This document shows, piece after piece, positions 1,032-12,296 of a DNA stretch of 40,153 nucleotides. The stretch is from contig JAJRUD010000232.1 of the NCBI GenBank assembly GCA_024277995.1, positions 1 through 40,153 of the forward strand, in the 5' to 3' direction. The DNA comes from Chloroflexota bacterium. GTDB lineage: Bacteria > Chloroflexota > Anaerolineae > Anaerolineales > E44-bin32. The notes beneath the pieces are model-generated. The model was given only the letters and a program-made list of their open reading frames with translations. It had not been told where the DNA came from and made no database searches. The position numbers and the translations under genes are program-made. Each line of letters begins with the position of its first letter. Positions within the stretch are counted from its first letter, which is position 1.

Positions 1032-1584
1032 TTGGGTGACGCACTGCGGCGCACCGCGAAACGCAGCCTGTTGCGCGCAATCCAATCGGCTCGCGCCGTC
1101 CAGGGAAGGGAGCTGATCGATTGGCTGCAGGTTGGGGCTGAGGATGCGGCGCTGGACGTCGGTTGCGGAACGGGGCTGCTGACCCTGCCGCCGGCCGAGC
1201 GCGCCCGCCGGACGGTCGGGCTGGATCTCAGCCCGGCGATGTTGAAAGAAGCTGGCTGCCAAGAGCGCTCGTCTTGGCTCGGCGGTCGAACTGCAGGAGG
1301 GGAGCGCCCTGGAACTGCCCTTCGGCGACGGCGAGTTCACCGTGATCGCCACGGCTTTCATGCTGCTCTATCTGACGCGGGATGAGAAGCTCCAGGCGCT
1401 GGCGGAGCTGCGCCGCGTGCTGGCGCCCGGCGGCCGGCTCGGTTGTCTGAGCAGCCTGGGCGAGGTCGCCGAGGTCTTCCTGCCGCGTGATGAGTGGGAT
1501 GAGCTGCTGTAGGAAGTCGGCTTCAGCGCGGTGGAGATCCGGGAGTGGCATGACGTCTTCCGGCTGGTGAGGGCCCGCAAATAG
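1032..1584 (+). pseudogene. class I SAM-dependent methyltransferase, broken by a frameshift and a stop codon
   Basis: The N-terminal half reads in one frame with SAM motif I (LDVGCGTGLLTL) and LDLSPAMLKEA. Near 1250-1260 the homology jumps to another frame (ELQEGSALELPFGDGEF, then LRRVLAPGGRL), and that frame has an in-frame TAG at 1510-1512 before resuming as EVGFSAVEIREWHDVFRLV to the TAG at 1582. Two independent lesions argue for a real pseudogene rather than one sequencing slip. The start is uncertain: a TTG at 1032 has GGGAGG-like purines just upstream. The final TAG abuts the ATG of the next, intact methyltransferase, so the pair probably once formed an operon. Confidence 0.75.
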
Positions 1585-2199
1585 ATGGACAATCGGCGCA
1601 ATCTCCAGATCTATCGCTGGTGGGCGCTCATCTACGATCGATGGGTGCCGCTGCTCTATGGTCGCGCCCGCCGGCGGGCCATCGCGCTGCTGGACCTGCG
1701 TCCCGGAGAGCGGCTGCTGATCCCGGGCGTCGGTACCGGCCTGGACCTGCCTCGAATCCCACCTCAGGTCTCCGTGGTAGGGGCCGACCTCAGCCCGCAC
1801 ATGCTGGCCAGAGCCGCTCCCAAGGCTGCAGGTCGCGATGTGCGCCTGCTGTTCATGGACGTGCAGGCCCTGGGCTTTCGCCAGGCCAGTTTCGACGCGC
1901 TGCTCTTCAACCTGATCCTCACCGTCGTCCCCGACGGGGCGGCCGCCTTCCGCGAGGGCTGGCGGGTGTTGAAACCCGGCGGCCGCGCCGTGATCTTCGA
2001 CAAGTTCCTCCCCGAGGGCGCCGCCCTCACCGCGCGTCGCCGCGCGCTGGGTCGCCTGCTCATGGGCGTGGGCACGGACCCCAACCGCCGCCTGAGCGAG
2101 ATTCTCGATGGGGTCGCAGGGATGACCGTCGAGCGTGATGAGCCGATCCTGCTGCGCGGGCACTTCCGGGTCCTGCTCCTGCGCAAGGCGCCAGCCTGA
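1585..2199 (+). CDS. class I SAM-dependent methyltransferase
   Basis: A 204-residue Rossmann-fold methyltransferase of the UbiE/PmtA-like type. Motif I is IPGVGTGLDL (residues ~51-60), motif II carries the acidic residue in VVGADLSPHML, and the post-I/IV region is FDALLFNLILTVVPDG, followed by VLKPGGRAVIFDKF (motif VI). The N-terminal RRNLQIYRWWALIYDRW pattern is typical of small lipid or quinone methyltransferases, but the substrate is not determined. It starts directly after the stop of the broken methyltransferase (TAGATG) and ends 12 nt before the MerR-type gene. Its place between metal-efflux genes leaves open a role in metal or metalloid methylation, but no conserved Cys set supports that. 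Confidence 0.85.
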   Translation: MDNRRNLQIYRWWALIYDRWVPLLYGRARRRAIALLDLRPGERLLIPGVGTGLDLPRIPPQVSVVGADLSPHMLARAAPKAAGRDVRLLFMDVQALGFRQASFDALLFNLILTVVPDGAAAFREGWRVLKPGGRAVIFDKFLPEGAALTARRRALGRLLMGVGTDPNRRLSEILDGVAGMTVERDEPILLRGHFRVLLLRKAPA

Positions 2200-2211
2200 A
2201 AGGACCTTCCC

Positions 2212-2613
2212 ATGATGCGCATCGGCCAGGCGGCCCGCGAGCTGGGGATCAACCCCAGGACCATCCGCTACTACGAGTCCATCGGCCTGGTCCCCGAGCC
2301 GCCGCGTTCCCCCTCCGGCTACCGCCTCTACGGCGAAGAGGATCTGGAGCGGCTGGCCTTCATCCTGCGCGCCAGGGCACTGGACCTGACGCTGGAGGAC
2401 ATCCGCGAGATCCTGGCCTTCCGTGAGCGCGGCGAGGCGCCCTGCCGCTACGTGGCCGGCCTGATCGACGAGAAGATCGCACAGGTGGAGGCCAGGATCG
2501 AGGCGCTGCGGCTGCTGCGGAAGGAACTCGAGGAATTGAGCCGGGCGGCGCAGGAGCTGCCGCCGCAGGCGATCCAGGAGAAACACTGCATCTGCCACAT
2601 CCTGGAGGGCTGA
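2212..2613 (+). CDS. MerR-family metal-responsive transcription regulator
   Basis: Cytoplasmic dimeric DNA-bending activator. The N-terminal winged helix ([20 protein letters not shown], with [15 protein letters not shown] as the wing) is followed by a long coiled coil (residues ~83-115). Cys78 lies at the position where divalent-metal members (MerR, ZntR, PbrR) have a metal Cys and CueR-type Cu(I) sensors have Ser. The tail carries a compact HCICH cluster (H125, C126, C128, H129). This points to a thiol-binding metal sensor. The obvious target is the dyad-containing promoter about 95 bp downstream, in front of the YPC ATPase. Start could be 2212 or the next ATG at 2215. It lies 12 nt after the methyltransferase. 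Confidence 0.9.
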
Positions 2614-2630
2614 AGGACGCCCATCGGCCG

Positions 2631-2659
2631 CCGCGACTTCCGAAGTCGCGGGCCATTTT
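2631..2659 (+). terminator. putative intrinsic terminator after the MerR-type gene
   Basis: Nine-base-pair stem CCGCGACTT/AAGTCGCGG with a 3-nt loop, followed after GCCA by a TTTT run at 2656-2659. It sits 17 nt after the regulator's stop and upstream of the next promoter, which fits separate transcription of the ATPase. The T-run is short and offset, so termination efficiency is uncertain. Confidence 0.5.
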
Positions 2660-2705
2660 CCCGCGCCGTTTGACTTCCCAATTTGCTCGAACACGACCTC
2701 TGCCC

Positions 2706-2736
2706 TTGACCTTCCAGTCGCTGGAAGGTGTAGCAT
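2706..2736 (+). promoter_or_regulatory. MerR-type promoter and operator for the YPC P-type ATPase
   Basis: -35 TTGACC (2706-2711) and -10 TAGCAT (2731-2736) are separated by 19 bp, the overlong spacer characteristic of MerR-activated promoters. The spacer holds a perfect dyad ACCTTCCAG-TCG-CTGGAAGGT (2709-2729), closely resembling the ACCTTCC...GGAAGGT operators of the CueR/ZntR/MerR metal-sensor group. The -10 hexamer overlaps the ATG at 2735 given by the longest ORF, so that ATG cannot be the translation start of a transcript from this promoter. Confidence 0.88.
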
Positions 2737-2791
2737 GGATGCAGAAGCCATGGCTCGGGGCCGTGCCCGGGGTCTCGCGGGAGAGTGTGAA

Positions 2792-5071
<2,280 letters not shown>

Positions 5072-5089
5072 TCCTCTGGCTGCCGGGAG

Positions 5090-5362
5090 CGTGGGTCGCC
5101 CGGCGCTGCTGATTGAGATGATTGGGAAAGCAGGGGCGGCTGCCACGCCGCCCCGGTGTGCGCTCGCTCGGGCGTGGGAGCCCGGCGCTGCTGAACGTGC
5201 CGGGGGCGTGGCTCTCCCGGGCGCCGGCGGCTCCTGCGCGGGCGCATCAACGCCGGGCGTGGGAGCCCGGGCTGCTGATTGAGATGATTGGGAAAGCAGG
5301 GGCGGCTCCCACGCCGCCCCGTCGTGCGCTCGCCCGGGCATGGGAGCCCGGATCTGCTGAAC
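5090..5362. repeat. two ~107-bp direct repeats with palindromic GC-rich cores
   Basis: Copies at about 5090-5196 and 5257-5362 share long identical stretches, including CTGCTGATTGAGATGATTGG and GAAAGCAGGGGCGGCT. Within each copy, GGGGCGGC...GCCGCCCC can fold into a hairpin, and the middle GGCTCCCACGCC is the exact reverse complement of the flanking GGCGTGGGAGCC boxes. A degenerate third piece lies between the copies. They fill the ~350-bp gap between the two ATPase transcription units, and no protein gene is convincing here. The structure is REP/BIME-like; it may also serve as a transcription end for the upstream ATPase. Confidence 0.75.
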
Positions 5363-5423
5363 CTGGCGTGAGCATGGATCGCTCGGGCGTCGGCCGCTCT
5401 CACGTTGCCTTGATGGGAAGCTC

Positions 5424-5452
5424 TTGACGCAGGCAGGGGAAGGGAGTAATAT
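5424..5452 (+). promoter_or_regulatory. sigma70-type promoter of the ArsR/ATPase operon
   Basis: -35 TTGACG (5424-5429), 17-bp spacer, -10 TAATAT (5447-5452), a strong match to the housekeeping consensus. The predicted transcription start (~5459) falls inside the operator palindrome that follows, giving a simple steric repression layout for the ArsR-family product. Confidence 0.8.
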
Positions 5453-5468
5453 CAGCCATTGCTGATAT
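5449..5468. promoter_or_regulatory. ArsR-family operator, perfect palindrome over the -10/start region
   Basis: ATATCAGC-CATT-GCTGATAT is a perfect 8-4-8 inverted repeat overlapping the -10 element and the predicted transcription start. ArsR/SmtB repressors bind imperfect or perfect dyads in this position and release on metal binding. The ORF-track ATG at 5467 lies inside this palindrome, which supports the downstream ATG at 5494. Confidence 0.8.
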
Positions 5469-5493
5469 GTTGTCTTGCCCCGGGAGATCGCTC

Positions 5494-5862
5494 ATGCTCA
5501 AAGGCCCGATCCTGCAGACCCTGCCGCTCAAGGCCAAGCTCTTCCGCGGTTTCGGCGACCCCTCACGCCTGGCCATCCTGGAGGCACTGCGCGCCGGCCC
5601 GATGACCGTGGGCGAACTCGTGCGCGCCACGGCCCTCACCCAACCCAATACCTCCAACCACCTGGCCTGCCTGCGCGAATGTGGCCTGGTCCGCACGCGA
5701 CGCCGAGGGCGCTTCATCGAATACCGGCTCAGCGACGCGCGCGTGGACCAGATTCTGGACCTGGCCGGCGCGCTGCTGGCCGAGACGGCGGAGGGCCTGG
5801 AGGCCTGCCCGCGCTACGCCGACCCGGAGCGGGAGACCGCGGCGCGCGAGGGGGTCTCATGA
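5494..5862 (+). CDS. ArsR/SmtB-family metal-sensing repressor, CmtR-like
   Basis: A 122-residue winged-helix repressor (FGDPSRLAILEAL, then TQPNTSNHLACLRECGLV recognition helix, RGRFIEYRLSD wing). Cysteines at 59, 63 and 105 match the CxxxC-plus-tail-Cys arrangement of CmtR-type Cd(II)/Pb(II) sensors (C57, C61, C102 in the mycobacterial protein, from memory). That makes cadmium/lead the best guess for the inducer. ATG 5494 is chosen because GGGAG lies 8 nt upstream and the earlier ATG (5467) sits in the operator. The gene is preceded by its own promoter/operator and overlaps the downstream ATPase start (ATGA), so pump and repressor are co-expressed and autoregulated. Confidence 0.93.
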   Translation: MLKGPILQTLPLKAKLFRGFGDPSRLAILEALRAGPMTVGELVRATALTQPNTSNHLACLRECGLVRTRRRGRFIEYRLSDARVDQILDLAGALLAETAEGLEACPRYADPERETAAREGVS

Positions 5863-7976
5863 GCGCCGCGGCGCCCGAGACCCTTGAAGTGCGCGTCGCC
5901 AACCTGGATTGCGAGAACGAGGCCGCGGCCATCAGGCGCCGGATGGAGGGCGCGCCGGGTCTGCTGGCTCTGGAGATCTTTCCCCGTTCTGCCAAAGTGA
6001 TCCTGCGCTACGACCCCAAGCGCACCGATCCTCGGGCCCTGAAAGAAGGGCTGGCCGAGGTCGGCTTCCCCGTTCAGCAGGGGCTGGCGCTCCCGGAACC
6101 TCCCCGGCCGTGGCGAAACCCCAAGATGATCACCTCCGTGGTCTCGGGTTCCCTGCTGGGCCTGGGCTGGCTGCTGGGCTGTTCATCATCTCCGGACCGG
6201 GTGAGCCAGGTGCTGTTCTTGCTGGCGCTCACCATCGGCGGGTACTACTTCGCCCGCGAGTCGCTGGAAGCGCTGATCTACCAGCGCCGGGTGGGGATCG
6301 AGCTGCTCATGAGCGTGGCGGCCGTCGTCGCCGCGGCCATGGGCCAGGCGGCCGAAGGCGCCATGCTGGTCTTCCTCTATTCCCTCTCTGAGGCGGCGGA
6401 GACCTACACCGAGGACAAGACGCGTTCCGCCATCCGGGCGTTGATGGAGCTGACGCCGAAGCGGGCCCTGGTGCGGCGCGACGGCCGCGAGGTCGAGGTG
6501 CCCGCCGAGAGCCTGCGGGTGGAGGAGGTCTTCATCGTGCGCGCCGGTGAGGCGGTGGCCACCGACGGGGAGGTCGTCGCCGGCGAATCGGCGGTCAACC
6601 AGGCGCCGGTCACGGGGGAGAGCGTGCCGGTGGAGAAGCGCCCCGGCGATACGCTCTTCGCCGGCAGCGTGAACGGCCAGGGCGCGCTGGAGGTGCGGGT
6701 CATCAGACCCTTCGCCGACAACACGATCCATCGCATCATCCGCATGGTGGAGGATGCTCAGGAGCGCAAAGGTCGCCGCCAGCGCTTCATCGAGCGCTTC
6801 GGAGAGCGCTACAGTCCCGCCGTTCTGGGGGTGGGCGTGCTGCTGGCCTTGCTGCCCCCGATCGCCTTTGGGGCCCCCTGGGAGATCTGGATCGGGCGAG
6901 CGACGGTGTTCGTGGTGGCCGCAGCTCCCTGCGCGCTGGTGATCTCCATCCCCGTCACCTTCGTGGCCGCGCTGGGCACGGCGGCCCGCAGCGGTGTGCT
7001 CTTCAAGGGTGGCGTATACCTGGAGGAACTGGCGCAGGTCACGGTGGTGGCCCTGGACAAGACGGGAACCCTGACCCGGGGCGAGCCGCAGGTGACGGAT
7101 GTCGTGCCCGACCTGGACAGGAGCGCCGATGATCTGCTGGCCGCGGCGGCGGGGGTGGAGGCGCGCAGCCAGCATCCATTGGCGCGTGCCATCCTGGACC
7201 ATGCGCGGTCGCAGGGGATCGACCCTGTCCAGGCGGGGAATTTTCAGGCCCGGACTGGCCTGGGGGCTTCGGCGCTGATCGGCGGCAGACGCGTCTTCGT
7301 CGGCAGCCCTACGCTCTTCGAGGGGGAGCTCGGGATCACGCTCGAAGGGCTGCGGGGGAGCCTGGAACGCCTGGAGACGGAGGGGAAGACGGTGGTGGTT
7401 GTGGGCGATGAGCGCGGCGGCTGGGGACTGATCGCGCTGCAGGACTCCCTGCGCGAGAACGCCCGCCAGGCGGTGGAGGCAATGCGCCGGGAGGGCGTGC
7501 GCAGGGTGGTGATGCTCACCGGCGATCATCAAGCCACGGCGGAGGCCATCGCTCGTGAACTGGGAGTCGACGAGGTCCATGCCGAACTGAAGCCGCAGGA
7601 CAAGCTCGAGCGCGTGCGCCAGCTCACCGAACGCCATGGTCACGTGGCCATGGTGGGCGATGGCGTCAACGACGCCCCGGCCCTGGCGCAGGCAAGTGTG
7701 GGTGTGGCCATGGGTGCTGCCGGCAGCGACGTGGCGCTTGAGACGGCCGACGTGGCCCTGATGGCCGACGACCTGGAGAAGTTGGCTTACGCCCTGCGCC
7801 TGGCGCGGCGCACGCACTCGGTCGTCCGGCAGAACCTGGTGCTCTCGGCCCTGGTGATCGGAGCCCTGGTGGCCGGCGCGCTGGCGGGGGCCTTCAGCCT
7901 GCCGGTGGCCGTGATGGGCCACGAATTGAGCGAGTTCGTGGTGATCGGCTCCGGCCTGCGCATGCTGCGCGGTTGA
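5859..7976 (+). CDS. P1B-type Cd/Zn/Pb-like ATPase (APC motif)
   Basis: Inner-membrane metal pump of 705 residues. It starts with a degenerate HMA fold in which the metal loop is LDCENEAAA (DCxxE instead of CxxC), a variant seen in divalent-metal pumps. Then come the membrane helices, the actuator motif VTGESVPVEK, the transport motif AAPCALVISIP (A356-P357-C358), DKTGTLT (D400), the SQHPLA nucleotide-binding motif, MLTGDH and MVGDGVNDAPAL. The C-terminus ends in MGHELSEFVVIGSGLRMLRG, with an acidic pair in the last helix. The ATG overlaps the repressor stop, so the ORF-track start at 5475 is a frame extension through the ArsR gene. With a CmtR-like sensor, Cd/Pb/Zn export is most likely. Confidence 0.95.
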   Translation: MSAAAPETLEVRVANLDCENEAAAIRRRMEGAPGLLALEIFPRSAKVILRYDPKRTDPRALKEGLAEVGFPVQQGLALPEPPRPWRNPKMITSVVSGSLLGLGWLLGCSSSPDRVSQVLFLLALTIGGYYFARESLEALIYQRRVGIELLMSVAAVVAAAMGQAAEGAMLVFLYSLSEAAETYTEDKTRSAIRALMELTPKRALVRRDGREVEVPAESLRVEEVFIVRAGEAVATDGEVVAGESAVNQAPVTGESVPVEKRPGDTLFAGSVNGQGALEVRVIRPFADNTIHRIIRMVEDAQERKGRRQRFIERFGERYSPAVLGVGVLLALLPPIAFGAPWEIWIGRATVFVVAAAPCALVISIPVTFVAALGTAARSGVLFKGGVYLEELAQVTVVALDKTGTLTRGEPQVTDVVPDLDRSADDLLAAAAGVEARSQHPLARAILDHARSQGIDPVQAGNFQARTGLGASALIGGRRVFVGSPTLFEGELGITLEGLRGSLERLETEGKTVVVVGDERGGWGLIALQDSLRENARQAVEAMRREGVRRVVMLTGDHQATAEAIARELGVDEVHAELKPQDKLERVRQLTERHGHVAMVGDGVNDAPALAQASVGVAMGAAGSDVALETADVALMADDLEKLAYALRLARRTHSVVRQNLVLSALVIGALVAGALAGAFSLPVAVMGHELSEFVVIGSGLRMLRG

Positions 7977-7989
7977 GAGGGGTGAGGCC

Positions 7990-9177
7990 GTGAGTGGAGA
8001 AGAGGGTTTCCTGCTGCGGGGGGTGATCTTGCTCGAAGGGGCGCAGATGGTGCACGACGCGGCCGTGGCCGTAGAGCAGGGGCGAATCAGCTTCGCCGGG
8101 AGGGAGAGCGAGATCGGAGCCGCGCCGGGCCTGCCCGTCTTCGACGGCGGGGGCATGTACCTGGCCCCTGGTTTCATCGATCTGCAGGTGAACGGCGCTT
8201 TCGGGCATGATTTCACCTCCGATCCCGATTCCATCGGTCGGGTCGCGGCGCGTTTGCCGCAGTGGGGCGTGACGGCTTTCCTGCCCACCTTCGTCAGCAG
8301 CCCGCTGGGCGATTACCGGCAGAAGCTGCAGGCGGTGACGGCGGCCCGCAAGGAGGCGCGCGGCGCGCGCGTGCTGGGGGCGCATCTGGAGGGCCCCTTC
8401 ATCAACCCGGCTAAGGCGGGGGCGCACGATGCGGACCTGCTCCTGGAGCCGGGCCTCGAGGCGCTGAAAGAGATGGGCCCCCTGGACGCCCTGCGTCTGC
8501 TCACCCTTGCCCCGGAGCTGCCCGGCGCGCTGCCGGTCATCCGCTGGCTGCGCGAGCGGGATGTGGTCGTCGGGTTGGGGCACAGCCAGGCGACGGAAGC
8601 TCAGGCATTGTATGCGCTGGAAGCCGGTGCGACCTGGGGGACTCATCTCTTCAACGCCATGGGCCCCTTCCACCACCGTGAGCCGGGGCTGGCGGGTGCC
8701 CTGCTCACCTCTCCCTCGGCGAACAGTGGGATCATCGCCGACGGGCGGCACGTCGCACCCGGAGCGCTGCGCCTGGCCTTTTTCTGCCTCGGTCCTGACA
8801 GACTGGCCCTGGTGAGCGACGCCATGGCCGGCGCCGGCGCGCCGCCGGGGGAGTACGCGCTGGGGGACCGCCGGGTGCGCTGCGCCGACGGGCGTGCATT
8901 GCTCGCCGATGGCACCCTGGCCGGCAGCCTGCTGACCATGGCTCGGGCCGTGGGCAACGCGGTAGCGCAGGTCGACTGCACGCCGGCTGAGGCGGCCTTC
9001 ATGGCGTCGGCGGTGCCGGCGCGCGTCCTGGGCCTGGCAGGCAGCCTGGGGCGATTGCGCGCCGGTCGTATGGCGGATCTGGCCCTGCTGGACAGCGACC
9101 TGCAGGTACAGGCCGCCTGGGTAGGCGGGTGCTTGCTCTACGTGGGGGAGGGGGCGCCTGCGAGGATGGTGTGCTGA
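7990..9177 (+). CDS. nagA: N-acetylglucosamine-6-phosphate deacetylase
   Basis: Cytoplasmic amidohydrolase (395 residues) that removes acetate from GlcNAc-6-phosphate in amino-sugar and peptidoglycan recycling. Family motifs are all visible: APGFIDLQVNGAFG (strand 1, with Q-x-N in place of the HxH of other amidohydrolases), HLEGPFINPAKAGAH (metal Glu), VGLGHSQA and THLFNAM (metal/substrate His), LVSDAM (catalytic Asp) and GTLAGS. Length is normal for the family. GTG start at 7990 has GAGAGGGGTGAGG just upstream. It lies 13 nt after the metal ATPase, so it probably shares that transcript although the function seems unrelated. No other amino-sugar gene is next to it. Confidence 0.95.
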   Translation: MSGEEGFLLRGVILLEGAQMVHDAAVAVEQGRISFAGRESEIGAAPGLPVFDGGGMYLAPGFIDLQVNGAFGHDFTSDPDSIGRVAARLPQWGVTAFLPTFVSSPLGDYRQKLQAVTAARKEARGARVLGAHLEGPFINPAKAGAHDADLLLEPGLEALKEMGPLDALRLLTLAPELPGALPVIRWLRERDVVVGLGHSQATEAQALYALEAGATWGTHLFNAMGPFHHREPGLAGALLTSPSANSGIIADGRHVAPGALRLAFFCLGPDRLALVSDAMAGAGAPPGEYALGDRRVRCADGRALLADGTLAGSLLTMARAVGNAVAQVDCTPAEAAFMASAVPARVLGLAGSLGRLRAGRMADLALLDSDLQVQAAWVGGCLLYVGEGAPARMVC

Positions 9178-9205
9178 AGTGGGAGGCGGTGAGCGTGGGC
9201 GCCAC

Positions 9206-9233
9206 TTGAAGCCGGGCTGTATTCTGGTATAGT
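9206..9233 (+). promoter_or_regulatory. promoter of the small basic protein gene
   Basis: -35 TTGAAG (9206-9211), 16-bp spacer, -10 TATAGT (9228-9233) preceded by TGG, an extended -10. The predicted start at ~9240 gives a ~55-nt leader before the ATG at 9296. The ORF-track start (9233) falls in the -10 and is therefore rejected. Confidence 0.65.
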
Positions 9234-9295
9234 TGGTGGTGGTCCCTACGAAGCGTTGGGGGCCGGCACCACTTGAGAGAGGGAGAGAAGCGAAT

Positions 9296-9463
9296 ATGCC
9301 GATGCGTGAGAAAGACCGACAACTTCGCCGACGCCGACGCCGGGTGCTCAAGCTGCGCAAGCTCAAGCGCCGCCTGGTTGAAGCGACGGATACCCGAACT
9401 CGCAGGCGCATTGTCGAGAAGATCAAGCGACTGGACCCCTGGACGGAGATCCCTGAGGTCTAG
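9296..9463 (+). CDS. very small, highly basic protein (55 aa, unknown; DUF6800-like pattern)
   Basis: Fifty-five residues, almost half of them Arg or Lys, with a run of six Arg (LRRRRRRVLKLRKLKRRL), a TDTRTRRRIVEKIKRL helix and a short WTEIPEV tail. The GGGAGAG ribosome site 10 nt upstream and a separate extended -10 promoter support a real gene. The basic helix followed by a (S/D)PW..IP end resembles short proteins I associate with DUF6800, from memory and not certain. An RNA- or ribosome-binding role is possible but unproven. It stands alone: nagA ends 118 nt before it and a terminator follows ~145 nt after. Confidence 0.72.
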   Translation: MPMREKDRQLRRRRRRVLKLRKLKRRLVEATDTRTRRRIVEKIKRLDPWTEIPEV

Positions 9464-9608
9464 CGGCAGTCCGGCCGGAAGGTGACGGCCGCGCTGAGCA
9501 GCCGCTGATCCTGAGAGCGGCACCGCCCGAAATCGGAATCAGATGCCATGGCCGCTACGCTGGGTGCGCCGCGAACTGGTCGAGTTGTTGGCATAATGGC
9601 AATTTGAG

Positions 9609-9635
9609 GACCCGCCTTTCCAAGCGGGTCTTTTT
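9609..9635 (+). terminator. intrinsic terminator before the sensor kinase gene
   Basis: Stem GACCCGC/GCGGGTC (9609-9615 with 9624-9630), 8-nt loop, followed at once by TTTTT. A classic Rho-independent terminator on the plus strand, closing the small basic protein unit. The 9464-9608 stretch before it holds no gene I can support. Confidence 0.85.
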
Positions 9636-9698
9636 GGCTTCTTCAGGATGCACGCCTCCGAGTTGATGTCCCCCGAACGAATGCGAGGAAACCGAGTG

Positions 9699-12296
9699 AT
9701 GGTCGCAGGCAGTGCGATGGCGAAAGAGGTGGCCGCTCTACTGGAGCGCCACCGGGAGGCGATCGCCGACCGCTGGGCGGAGCGAGTGCAATCGCTCCCC
9801 GACTCTCATTACCAAGAAAGGCCTGTAGGTGAGCTGCGCGCCTCGACGATGAGAGGGTTGCGTGCCATCATCGAAGCTCTGACCACTGAATCATACACCG
9901 CGCTGGAAAACTATCTCACTGACGTCAGTCTCACCCGGCTGCGCATGGGATTCGACATCGCCGAGGTCATCGAGGCCTTGTTGCTCTTCGAGGTCTCGGC
10001 GTTGCCTATCATCTGGCAGACCTATGCCCCCGATTCCCCGCAGAGGCGTGAGGCTCATGAATTGATCGCCAGCTGTTCGCGCTGGATGGCCGGTCGCTTC
10101 GGCGCCCTGTATGCCGGAGAAGGCAATCGCATATTGCGCCGCGAGCAGCGCCGGACGGCTCTGATGCTGGATGCTGCCCGCGCCGCCAGCGGTTCGCTGG
10201 ACCTGGAGGAGGTTTTGCGGCGCGTGGCGCGCGGCATCGCCGAAGCGGTCGGTGTGCGGAATTGCGGCATCTACCTGCTGGACCCGGAAAAGGGGCTGCT
10301 GATGCCGACGGAGGGCAGGGCGGCACCGGAGATCATGGGTCCGGAATTCAGCGCGAGTTTCCTGGGGAGGCCGCTGGACCCGCGGCGGGATGCCTTCACC
10401 CGCGAAGTGCTGGAGGCCGGGCGGCCGGTCGTATGCCTGGACGCCGAGAGCGATCCGCGAACGGACAAGGAGCTGGTGCGGCTGCTGGGCCTGAAGTCGA
10501 TCCTGGCGGTGCCCTTCGTGGTCAAGGAGAGAGTGCTGGGCGTCGCTATGGTGAGCACCTTCGACGAGCCCTACGCCTTCAGCCAGGAGCAGATCGAGCT
10601 CGCCTGGGGCATCGCCAATGCGGTGGCTCTGGCCATCGAGAACGCGCGCCTCTATCAGACGGAGCAGGACCGGCACGCCGAGGCCGAGCGGCGCCGGCGG
10701 GTGGCTGAAGGCCTGCGGGAGATATTGGCGATCCTGAACTCGCAGCGCTCACCGGAGGAGATCCTGGATTGCGTCGTGGCCCAGGCCGGCGGGATGCTCG
10801 ACGCCGACGCGGTGAGCGTCTACCAGGCTCGACCGGAGGAGGGGGTGCTGCAATTGCGCGCCTCGCATGGGCTGGAGGAGGAACTGGTGGTGCCGCGCAT
10901 TCCCCTCGGGAAGGGGGCCGGCGGGCGGGCGGTGGTCGAAGGCCGGCCGGTGGCGGTGCCCGACAGCCTGGAAACCATTCCCGAGCGGGGAACTGAGCCC
11001 CTGTCGCCGGAGCGGCGCGATCTCCTGCAGCGTGTTGCGCGGCGTTATCGTGCCATGTTGGCCGTCCCGCTCATCGTGCAGGGCGAAGTGTACGGGGCGC
11101 TCACGCTGCGCTATCGTTCGCGGCGCGAATTCTCTCCGGAGGACGTTGCTCTGGCGAAGAGCTTCGGTGACCAGGTGGCCCTGGCCCTGGAGAACGCGCG
11201 CCTGCATCAGGAAGAGCAGGAGCGGCGACAGGAGCTGCAGACATTGCTGGACGTCGCCGCGGCGGCGAGCAGCTCGCTTGAGCTGGATGAGATGCTGCAG
11301 GCGACGCTGGATCGGCTGGTGGTTCTGGTGGGGGCCTCGCGTGCGGGCGTCATGCTGCGTGATGACTCCACGGGCGAATTGGTGCCCTACATGGTCCGAC
11401 CGCCGCGGCCGATCTCCCCGCAGGACATGGCTGAGTTGATCGGGGCCTGCCAGGGCGTGATAGCCAGCGGGCAACCGCTCTACATCCTCGACAGGGAGCA
11501 CCCGGAGCCCGGCGTGCTGTTGCCCCTGCGTTCGCATGGAGAGGTTCTGGGCGTCCTGGTGATCGTGGGGCCGGCCGGCAAGGCTTTCAGCGAGGTGCAA
11601 AGAGCGCTCTTCGAGGCCATCGCCGATCAGGTGGGTGTAGCGGTGGAGAAGGCCCGGCTCTACGCCAACGCCGAGGAGGCCGCTGCGGCCGCCGAACGCA
11701 GTCGCCTGGCGCGAGAGTTACACGACGCCGTGACGCAGACGCTGTTCTCCGCCAGCCTGATCGCCGAGGTGCTGCCGCGGCTCTGGGAGCGCGATCGTGA
11801 GGAAGGCCTGCGGCGCCTGGAGGAGCTGCGCGAACTCACGCGCGGCGCCCTGGCGGAGATGCGCTCGCTGCTTCACGAGCTGCGGCCCACCTCGCTGACG
11901 GAGGTGCCCCTGCCGGATCTGCTGCGCCAGCTTGCGGAAGCGGCCAGGGCGCGGGCCCGCCTCTCGGTGGAGGTGAGCGTGGAGGGAGAGTGCGCCTTTC
12001 CCCCCGACGTGCAGGTGGCGCTCTATCGCATCGCGCAGGAGGCGCTCAATAACGTGGCCAAGCACGCCGCGGCCAGGCAGGTGACGATCTGCCTGCAATG
12101 TGCTCTCTCGGGGGAGGTGGTGCTCGAAGTGCGCGATGACGGGATAGGGTTCGACCCCGGCGAGGTCTCGCCAGACCATCTGGGGCTGGGGATCATGCGG
12201 GAACGCGCCGAGTCCGTCGGTGCGCAATTCACAGTCAACAGCCAGGCCGGGCGGGGCACGACGGTGTCCGTCCGCTGGCGTCCCAGGGAAGGGTGA
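9699..12296 (+). CDS. cytoplasmic sensor histidine kinase with three GAF domains (NarL type)
   Basis: Soluble kinase of about 865 residues with no membrane segments. Order: an N-terminal all-helical RsbRD/sensor-like domain ([20 protein letters not shown]), then three GAF domains (around residues 150-330, 345-510 and 530-660), the HisKA_3 dimerisation helix with [16 protein letters not shown] (His near residue 675), and a HATPase_c domain with [18 protein letters not shown] and [10 protein letters not shown]. Three GAFs suggest sensing of small molecules, redox or light; conserved haem or bilin Cys residues were not evident. ATG 9699 is preferred (GAGGAAA upstream). The longest ORF starts at 9648, only 13 nt after a terminator. 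It overlaps or abuts the response regulator gene. Confidence 0.93.

Follow-up and report, generated by a model that had tools for sequence, protein, structure and literature searches.

A predicted MerR-type promoter with a copper-type operator upstream of a YPC P1B-ATPase gene, and its putative divalent-type sensor

Positions 2706-2736 of the window (the whole 40,153-nucleotide stretch of DNA analysed here) probably form the promoter-operator of a gene encoding a YPC-type P1B ATPase. We place at roughly 0.87 the probability that this promoter belongs to the CueR/HmrR class and is switched by metal through the adjacent MerR-family protein, with the pump predicted to be translated from GTG 2792. 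The site itself appears to be an ordinary, well-conserved MerR-type promoter of a known class, and what makes it modestly interesting is that a copper-type operator occurs together with a sensor of the divalent type and pumps of a YPC clade with more than one plausible substrate. The features of the region are as follows:

1585-2199, + strand: SAM-dependent methyltransferase gene (Pfam Methyltransf_11, E 2.7e-16), ending 12 bp before merR
2212-2613, + strand: gene for a MerR-family metalloregulator of 133 aa (Pfam MerR_1, E 4.8e-21; MerR-DNA-bind, 2.7e-18)
2631-2651, + strand: perfect inverted repeat CCGCGACTTC-C-GAAGTCGCGG followed by GCCATTTT, a putative weak merR terminator
2706-2711, + strand: -35 hexamer TTGACC, read in the sequence; nearly all homologous boxes retain TTGAC
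2709-2729, + strand: operator, a perfect 9-3-9 dyad ACCTTCCAG-TCG-CTGGAAGGT whose arms are paired across 31 homologous boxes
2731-2736, + strand: -10 hexamer TAGCAT, read in the sequence; homologous boxes keep TANNNT
2779-2785, + strand: Shine-Dalgarno-like GGGAGAG, read in the sequence, ~6-8 nt before GTG 2792
2792-5071, + strand: gene for a P1B-type ATPase, 759 aa from GTG 2792, with one N-terminal HMA domain (GGMSCSFC) and DKTGT

The first-pass annotation had described a 19-bp spacer and a perfect 21-bp dyad between the MerR-type gene and the P1B-ATPase gene, and recomputation from the sequence returned exactly this: the dyad is 21 bp long (9+3+9) with 9/9 arm positions paired, fills the 19-bp spacer (2712-2730) and overlaps the terminal bases of the -35 hexamer. 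Positions 2700-2736 read CTGCCC-TTGACC-TTCCAGTCGCTGGAAGGTG-TAGCAT, and transcription would be expected to start near 2743, ~7 nt past the -10 hexamer. A generic sigma-70 scan for spacings of 16-18 bp did not report the site, a miss that is expected because the spacer is 19 bp.

Promoters of MerR-family metal regulators carry a strong palindrome within a spacer of 19 or 20 bp (Permina et al., PMC1526738). The window promoter has the 19-bp spacer, a palindrome within it and, downstream, a metal transport gene with a linked MerR-family regulator, an association that is kept in relatives. Its operator is identical, letter for letter and with both arms perfect, to the published HmrR consensus, ACCTTCCAG-(3)-CTGGAAGG with a 19-bp spacer (PMC1526738). 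The CueR operator is ACCTTCCC-(5)-TGGAAGGT, also with a 19-bp spacer (PMC1526738), and the Escherichia coli copA promoter, PcopA (TTGACC-TTCCCCTTGCTGGAAGGTT-TAACCT in the K-12 record), has a near-identical layout, TTGACCTTCCCCTTGCTGGAAGGTTTAACCT, in which the -35 hexamer, the spacer length and the outer half-sites are those of the window. A P1B-ATPase gene lies downstream of the HmrR/CueR copper-ATPase promoters (PcopA and rhizobial actP), as it does here. In contrast, the ZntR operator, ACTCTGGAGTCGACTCCAGAGT, and the MerR operator, TCCGTAC-4-GTACGGA (PMC1526738), are unlike the window operator in sequence.

Allowing up to 3 mismatches, a scan of the 40-kb window finds the dyad pattern once, whereas 100 shuffles average 0.00 occurrences. 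The exact dyad is single-copy in the 3.36-Mb genome to which the window belongs (a fragmented assembly, 86% complete), and so is the looser form TTGACNTTCCN7GGAANGT. Perfect 9+9 repeats around a centre of 3 or 4 bases number four in the window, and only the one at 2709-2729 lies between promoter hexamers. Three further TTCCAG-N3-CTGGAA sites in the genome were considered as additional regulon members and rejected, all being devoid of promoter elements; two fall within long ORFs and one at a contig end. The predicted regulon in this genome is one promoter. A search for the full box in viral contigs gave no match.

Further genomes of the phylum, presumably Chloroflexota, encode orthologs of the ATPase, as do plasmids from Deinococcus and from haloarchaea. 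A strict box (TTGAC, a spacer of 19 or 20 bp, TANNNT and at least 6/9 dyad pairs, on the coding strand and no more than 1 kb upstream) was present in 20 of the 34 YPC-ATPase loci, which include the window and one archaeal plasmid and are not 34 independent events, with close relatives among them (L118/L119, L159-L161), compared with 0 in 3,400 shuffled upstream regions (100 shuffles per region). Together with the operator identity to HmrR and the match to PcopA, this bears out the MerR-type promoter proposed in the first-pass annotation; a chance dyad was ruled out by the shuffles (0.00 expected) and by the conservation upstream of YPC-ATPase genes. The 14 loci without a strict box within 1 kb comprise variants outside the strict rule in L111 (two identical TTGCGTTTCCAGCTACTGGAAACTGTACAAT copies) and in L116 and L121 (CCTTG-type boxes), one masked upstream region, two loci with a box farther upstream by the regulator, and some with none. 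Part of the clade is without any box, and regulation would therefore differ in that part. Pairing of the inner arms is kept in nearly every one of 31 boxes, and some arm changes are compensatory, such as pair 7 changing from C-G to A-T in L162 and L163. The spacer is 19 bp in the nearer relatives of the window and mostly 20 bp in the more distant ones. The conserved operator ties a poorly characterised clade of YPC pumps to MerR-type control.

The pump is predicted to start at GTG 2792, which is residue 20 of the ORF that opens at 2735 and lies ~57 bases downstream of that position. It had been claimed that the 2735 start falls inside the -10 hexamer, and the first two bases of ATG 2735 are indeed shared with it; the proposed shift to GTG 2792 held up when the suggested alignment of ortholog N-termini was run. 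In tblastn alignments of 34 other orthologs, the first matched residue falls between 19 and 32 of the 2735 ORF, and L123, L156, L158, L160 and L171 each have an in-frame stop shortly before the point where homology starts, so no longer N-terminus is possible in these five. It is very improbable that translation starts at ATG 2735 or ATG 2750 and that the dyad is fortuitous or merely a terminator or repressor hairpin. Both ATGs are in frame and open, but no ortholog aligns before residue 19, ATG 2735 overlaps the -10 hexamer and, whereas a good Shine-Dalgarno site precedes GTG 2792, neither ATG has one; the dyad, moreover, is conserved in relatives and not expected by chance. ATG 2750 would lie no more than ~10 nt from where the transcript is expected to begin. 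The predicted GTG 2792 start fixes the gene where automatic calling of the longest ORF would place its start in the -10 box.

In the proposed mechanism, the MerR-family protein encoded at 2212-2613 would occupy, as a dimer, the dyad between the -35 and -10 hexamers. Without metal, the over-long 19-bp spacer would put the two hexamers out of register, keeping transcription low, while binding of a thiol-loving metal to Cys78 and the C-terminal CxC loop would cause the regulator to distort the spacer, making both hexamers usable by RNA polymerase and allowing the pump to be made from GTG 2792. MerR-family regulators repress without metal and activate by spacer distortion when metal is present (PMC1526738). 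Spacer distortion and metal activation are assigned here by analogy with that behaviour, and the anatomy of the site appears to fit every sequence requirement of it.

Activation by the neighbouring regulator, as first suggested from the window alone, is supported at the sequence level by a recurrent linkage of regulator, box and ATPase. In L111, L117-L121, L129 and L158-L160 the regulator has the box or a variant of it either on its upstream side or between itself and the ATPase, and the box also precedes homologous regulators in the ATPase-less loci L125-L127 and L130. There is little likelihood that the box is real but served in trans by another MerR-family regulator. Some boxes have no regulator in the fetched region (for example L161, L167, L172 and L173), and a second regulator in trans is possible because the assembly is fragmented and 86% complete; however, only one relative of the neighbouring regulator was found in the genome, the linkage recurs in many families, and homologous regulators are themselves preceded by the same box. 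Within the window, no box was found in front of the regulator gene.

The neighbouring regulator probably shares a transcript with the methyltransferase gene. It may start at ATG 2212 or ATG 2215, of which ATG 2215 appears the better by homology. The hairpin at 2631-2651 has a fold z-score of -1.05 and a weak T-run, and a terminator scan made no call; it is tentatively a possible weak terminator of the merR transcript, in which case the ATPase would have its own promoter.

All NCBIfam scores of the regulator lie below cut-off: CadR-PbrR 113.1 bits (TIGR02047, cut-off 151.45), the Zn-responsive PRK09514 104, MerR 96.3 (TIGR02051, mercury, cut-off 150.85), ZntR 94 and CueR 82 (TIGR02044, cut-off 147.4). 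Alignment with E. coli CueR and ZntR places Cys78, in the dimer helix, at the position of CueR Ser77. In the loop, CueR C112 has no counterpart, C120 is matched by C128, and an additional cysteine, C126, creates a CxC, so that the C-terminal HCICH loop contains Cys126 and Cys128. Serine at the CueR-77 position goes with monovalent sensing and cysteine with divalent sensing, and a CueR carrying S77C reacts to both classes of ion (PMC11591864). The regulator thus departs from the Cu(I) set of CueR/HmrR (Ser77 with C112 and C120), having Cys for Ser77 and CxC in place of the first loop cysteine. It shares the dimer-helix cysteine and its best family scores with CadR/PbrR, ZntR and MerR, but falls under every curated cut-off and is missing the first cysteine of the C-terminal loop. 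Nor does it match the cysteines of mercury-sensing MerR (C82/C117/C126), the missing first loop cysteine being judged against CueR and ZntR and not against Tn501 MerR. The operator is of copper type, yet by the metal-site test the predicted sensor lies outside CueR. In some homologous regulators (L118, L119, L116, L121 and L123) the loop cysteines are reduced to one, as in GVCPAIE, VVCRIIE and QICRIIE, and the metal site therefore varies within the group.

The pump belongs to the P1B heavy-metal ATPases, with 546 bits for TIGR01525 and 446 bits for TIGR01511 (cut-offs 346 and 397), an HMA domain (E 2.7e-12) and DKTGT. It has three cysteines in 759 residues, namely the HMA pair at 21 and 24 and Cys388 of a YPC motif at 386-388 in TM6. 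YPC stands where P1B-1 copper ATPases have the canonical CPC, which also sets the pump apart from those of the CueR/HmrR systems. The form GYPCA(L/V)G is common to the orthologs whose TM6 motif was displayed (not L120, L121 or L129), and the string GYPCALG gave no match in a literature text search. The 32 YPC-group rows make up a single, 100/100-supported clade apart from CPC relatives, in a tree rooted at the midpoint for drawing only, and the clade spans Chloroflexota, Deinococcus and haloarchaea. YPC pumps are already described and are not new. The CopA of Sulfolobus solfataricus is a YPC protein with verified copper function (PMC4541151), while the metagenomic CopAL6, also YPC, lowered copper resistance and raised copper content in E. 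coli delta-copA (PMC11082258); both are likened to the window pump by the YPC described in place of CPC in TM6. Halobacterium YvgX was considered as a characterised copper member of the clade.

Two readings of the metal signal are about equally plausible. The first, to which we give somewhat less than an even chance, is that Cu(I) or Ag(I) is the signal, the regulator functioning as a CueR/HmrR and the pump exporting Cu(I). The operator identical to that of HmrR and close to PcopA points this way, as do the pump's score above the cut-off of the copper-translocating ATPase family TIGR01511, its best solved relatives, which are copper ATPases, the verified function of S. solfataricus CopA, and a Deinococcus relative that adjoins a four-helix-bundle copper-binding protein. 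Against copper stand the cysteine at the Ser77 position, a mark of divalent sensors (PMC11591864), the absence of the first CueR loop cysteine and the behaviour of CopAL6. In addition, the genome already has a CPC CopA with a CsoR-like repressor gene, a second, separate copper circuit in which the CsoR-like protein scores below its family cut-off:

L194 (G000:C1:22000-28500) 1654-4624, - strand, same genome: CPC CopA preceded by a CsoR/RicR-like gene

The second reading, likewise credible but short of even odds, takes the signal to be Hg(II) or a different soft, divalent metal and the pump to be part of a mercury- or multi-metal-resistance module. It draws on Cys78 and the CxC loop, on CadR-PbrR, Zn-responsive and MerR family scores that exceed that of CueR, and on copper seemingly being served by the CsoR-like/CPC CopA pair. 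MerA also lies beside the regulator in L112 and L114, merA lies beside the pump on haloarchaeal plasmids, and in L159 the regulator, box and YPC ATPase adjoin weak MerT- and MerE-like matches, a CopZ-type chaperone and a MerA-like reductase. However, the operator is of the copper type and not the MerR TCCGTAC type, the MerT/MerE matches and the reductase of L159 are below family cut-offs, and no merTPA genes came to light over the window's first 9 kb. The MerA of this genome is on another contig, and its control by the box was rejected, as there is no box on that contig stretch.

It is possible, though rather doubtful, that the system represents a distinct subtype, in which a copper-type CTTCCAG/CTGGAAG operator is paired with a divalent-type Cys78/CxC sensor and the substrate of the YPC clade would not be copper, or not copper alone, but possibly Hg(II), within a module with an HMA chaperone, a CcdA-like protein and DUF7482. 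Because operator type and sensor type disagree, the metal specificity of the clade can be tested directly.

DUF7482-type proteins adjoin YPC ATPases or are fused to them C-terminally, or adjoin homologous regulators, and genes for a small HMA chaperone and/or a CcdA/DsbD-like membrane protein lie near homologous regulators:

L111 2787-3368: DUF7482-type protein, Pfam-tested
L155 7240-7800: DUF7482-type protein, Pfam-tested
L113 and L115, ATPase C-termini: DUF7482-type, by similarity
L130 1942-2538: DUF7482-type protein, by similarity
L125 4664-5814: small HMA chaperone and/or CcdA/DsbD-like membrane protein
L130 2564-3677: small HMA chaperone and/or CcdA/DsbD-like membrane protein
L128 4760-5644: small HMA chaperone and/or CcdA/DsbD-like membrane protein

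The DUF7482-type gene of L111 has its own copy of the box, and its product is a likely unnamed member of the regulon. A DUF7482 search gave no match in the window's own genome, and none in control genomes either. The HMA chaperone and CcdA/DsbD-like neighbours suggest a wider metal-handling module. In L159 (G636:C211), a cluster at 1500-11000 comprises two MerR-family regulators, three boxes, a YPC ATPase and a methyltransferase, together with MerT-like, MerE-like, CopZ-type [2Fe-2S] chaperone, MerA-like reductase, DUF7482-like and HMA genes; the methyltransferase, a distant homolog (32% identity) of the one in the window, comes after the YPC ATPase. In the window itself, positions 5467-7976 contain an ArsR/SmtB-family regulator gene and, immediately after it, a second P1B-ATPase gene; these genes and an ATPase fragment at 17-613 make up a metal-ATPase cluster.
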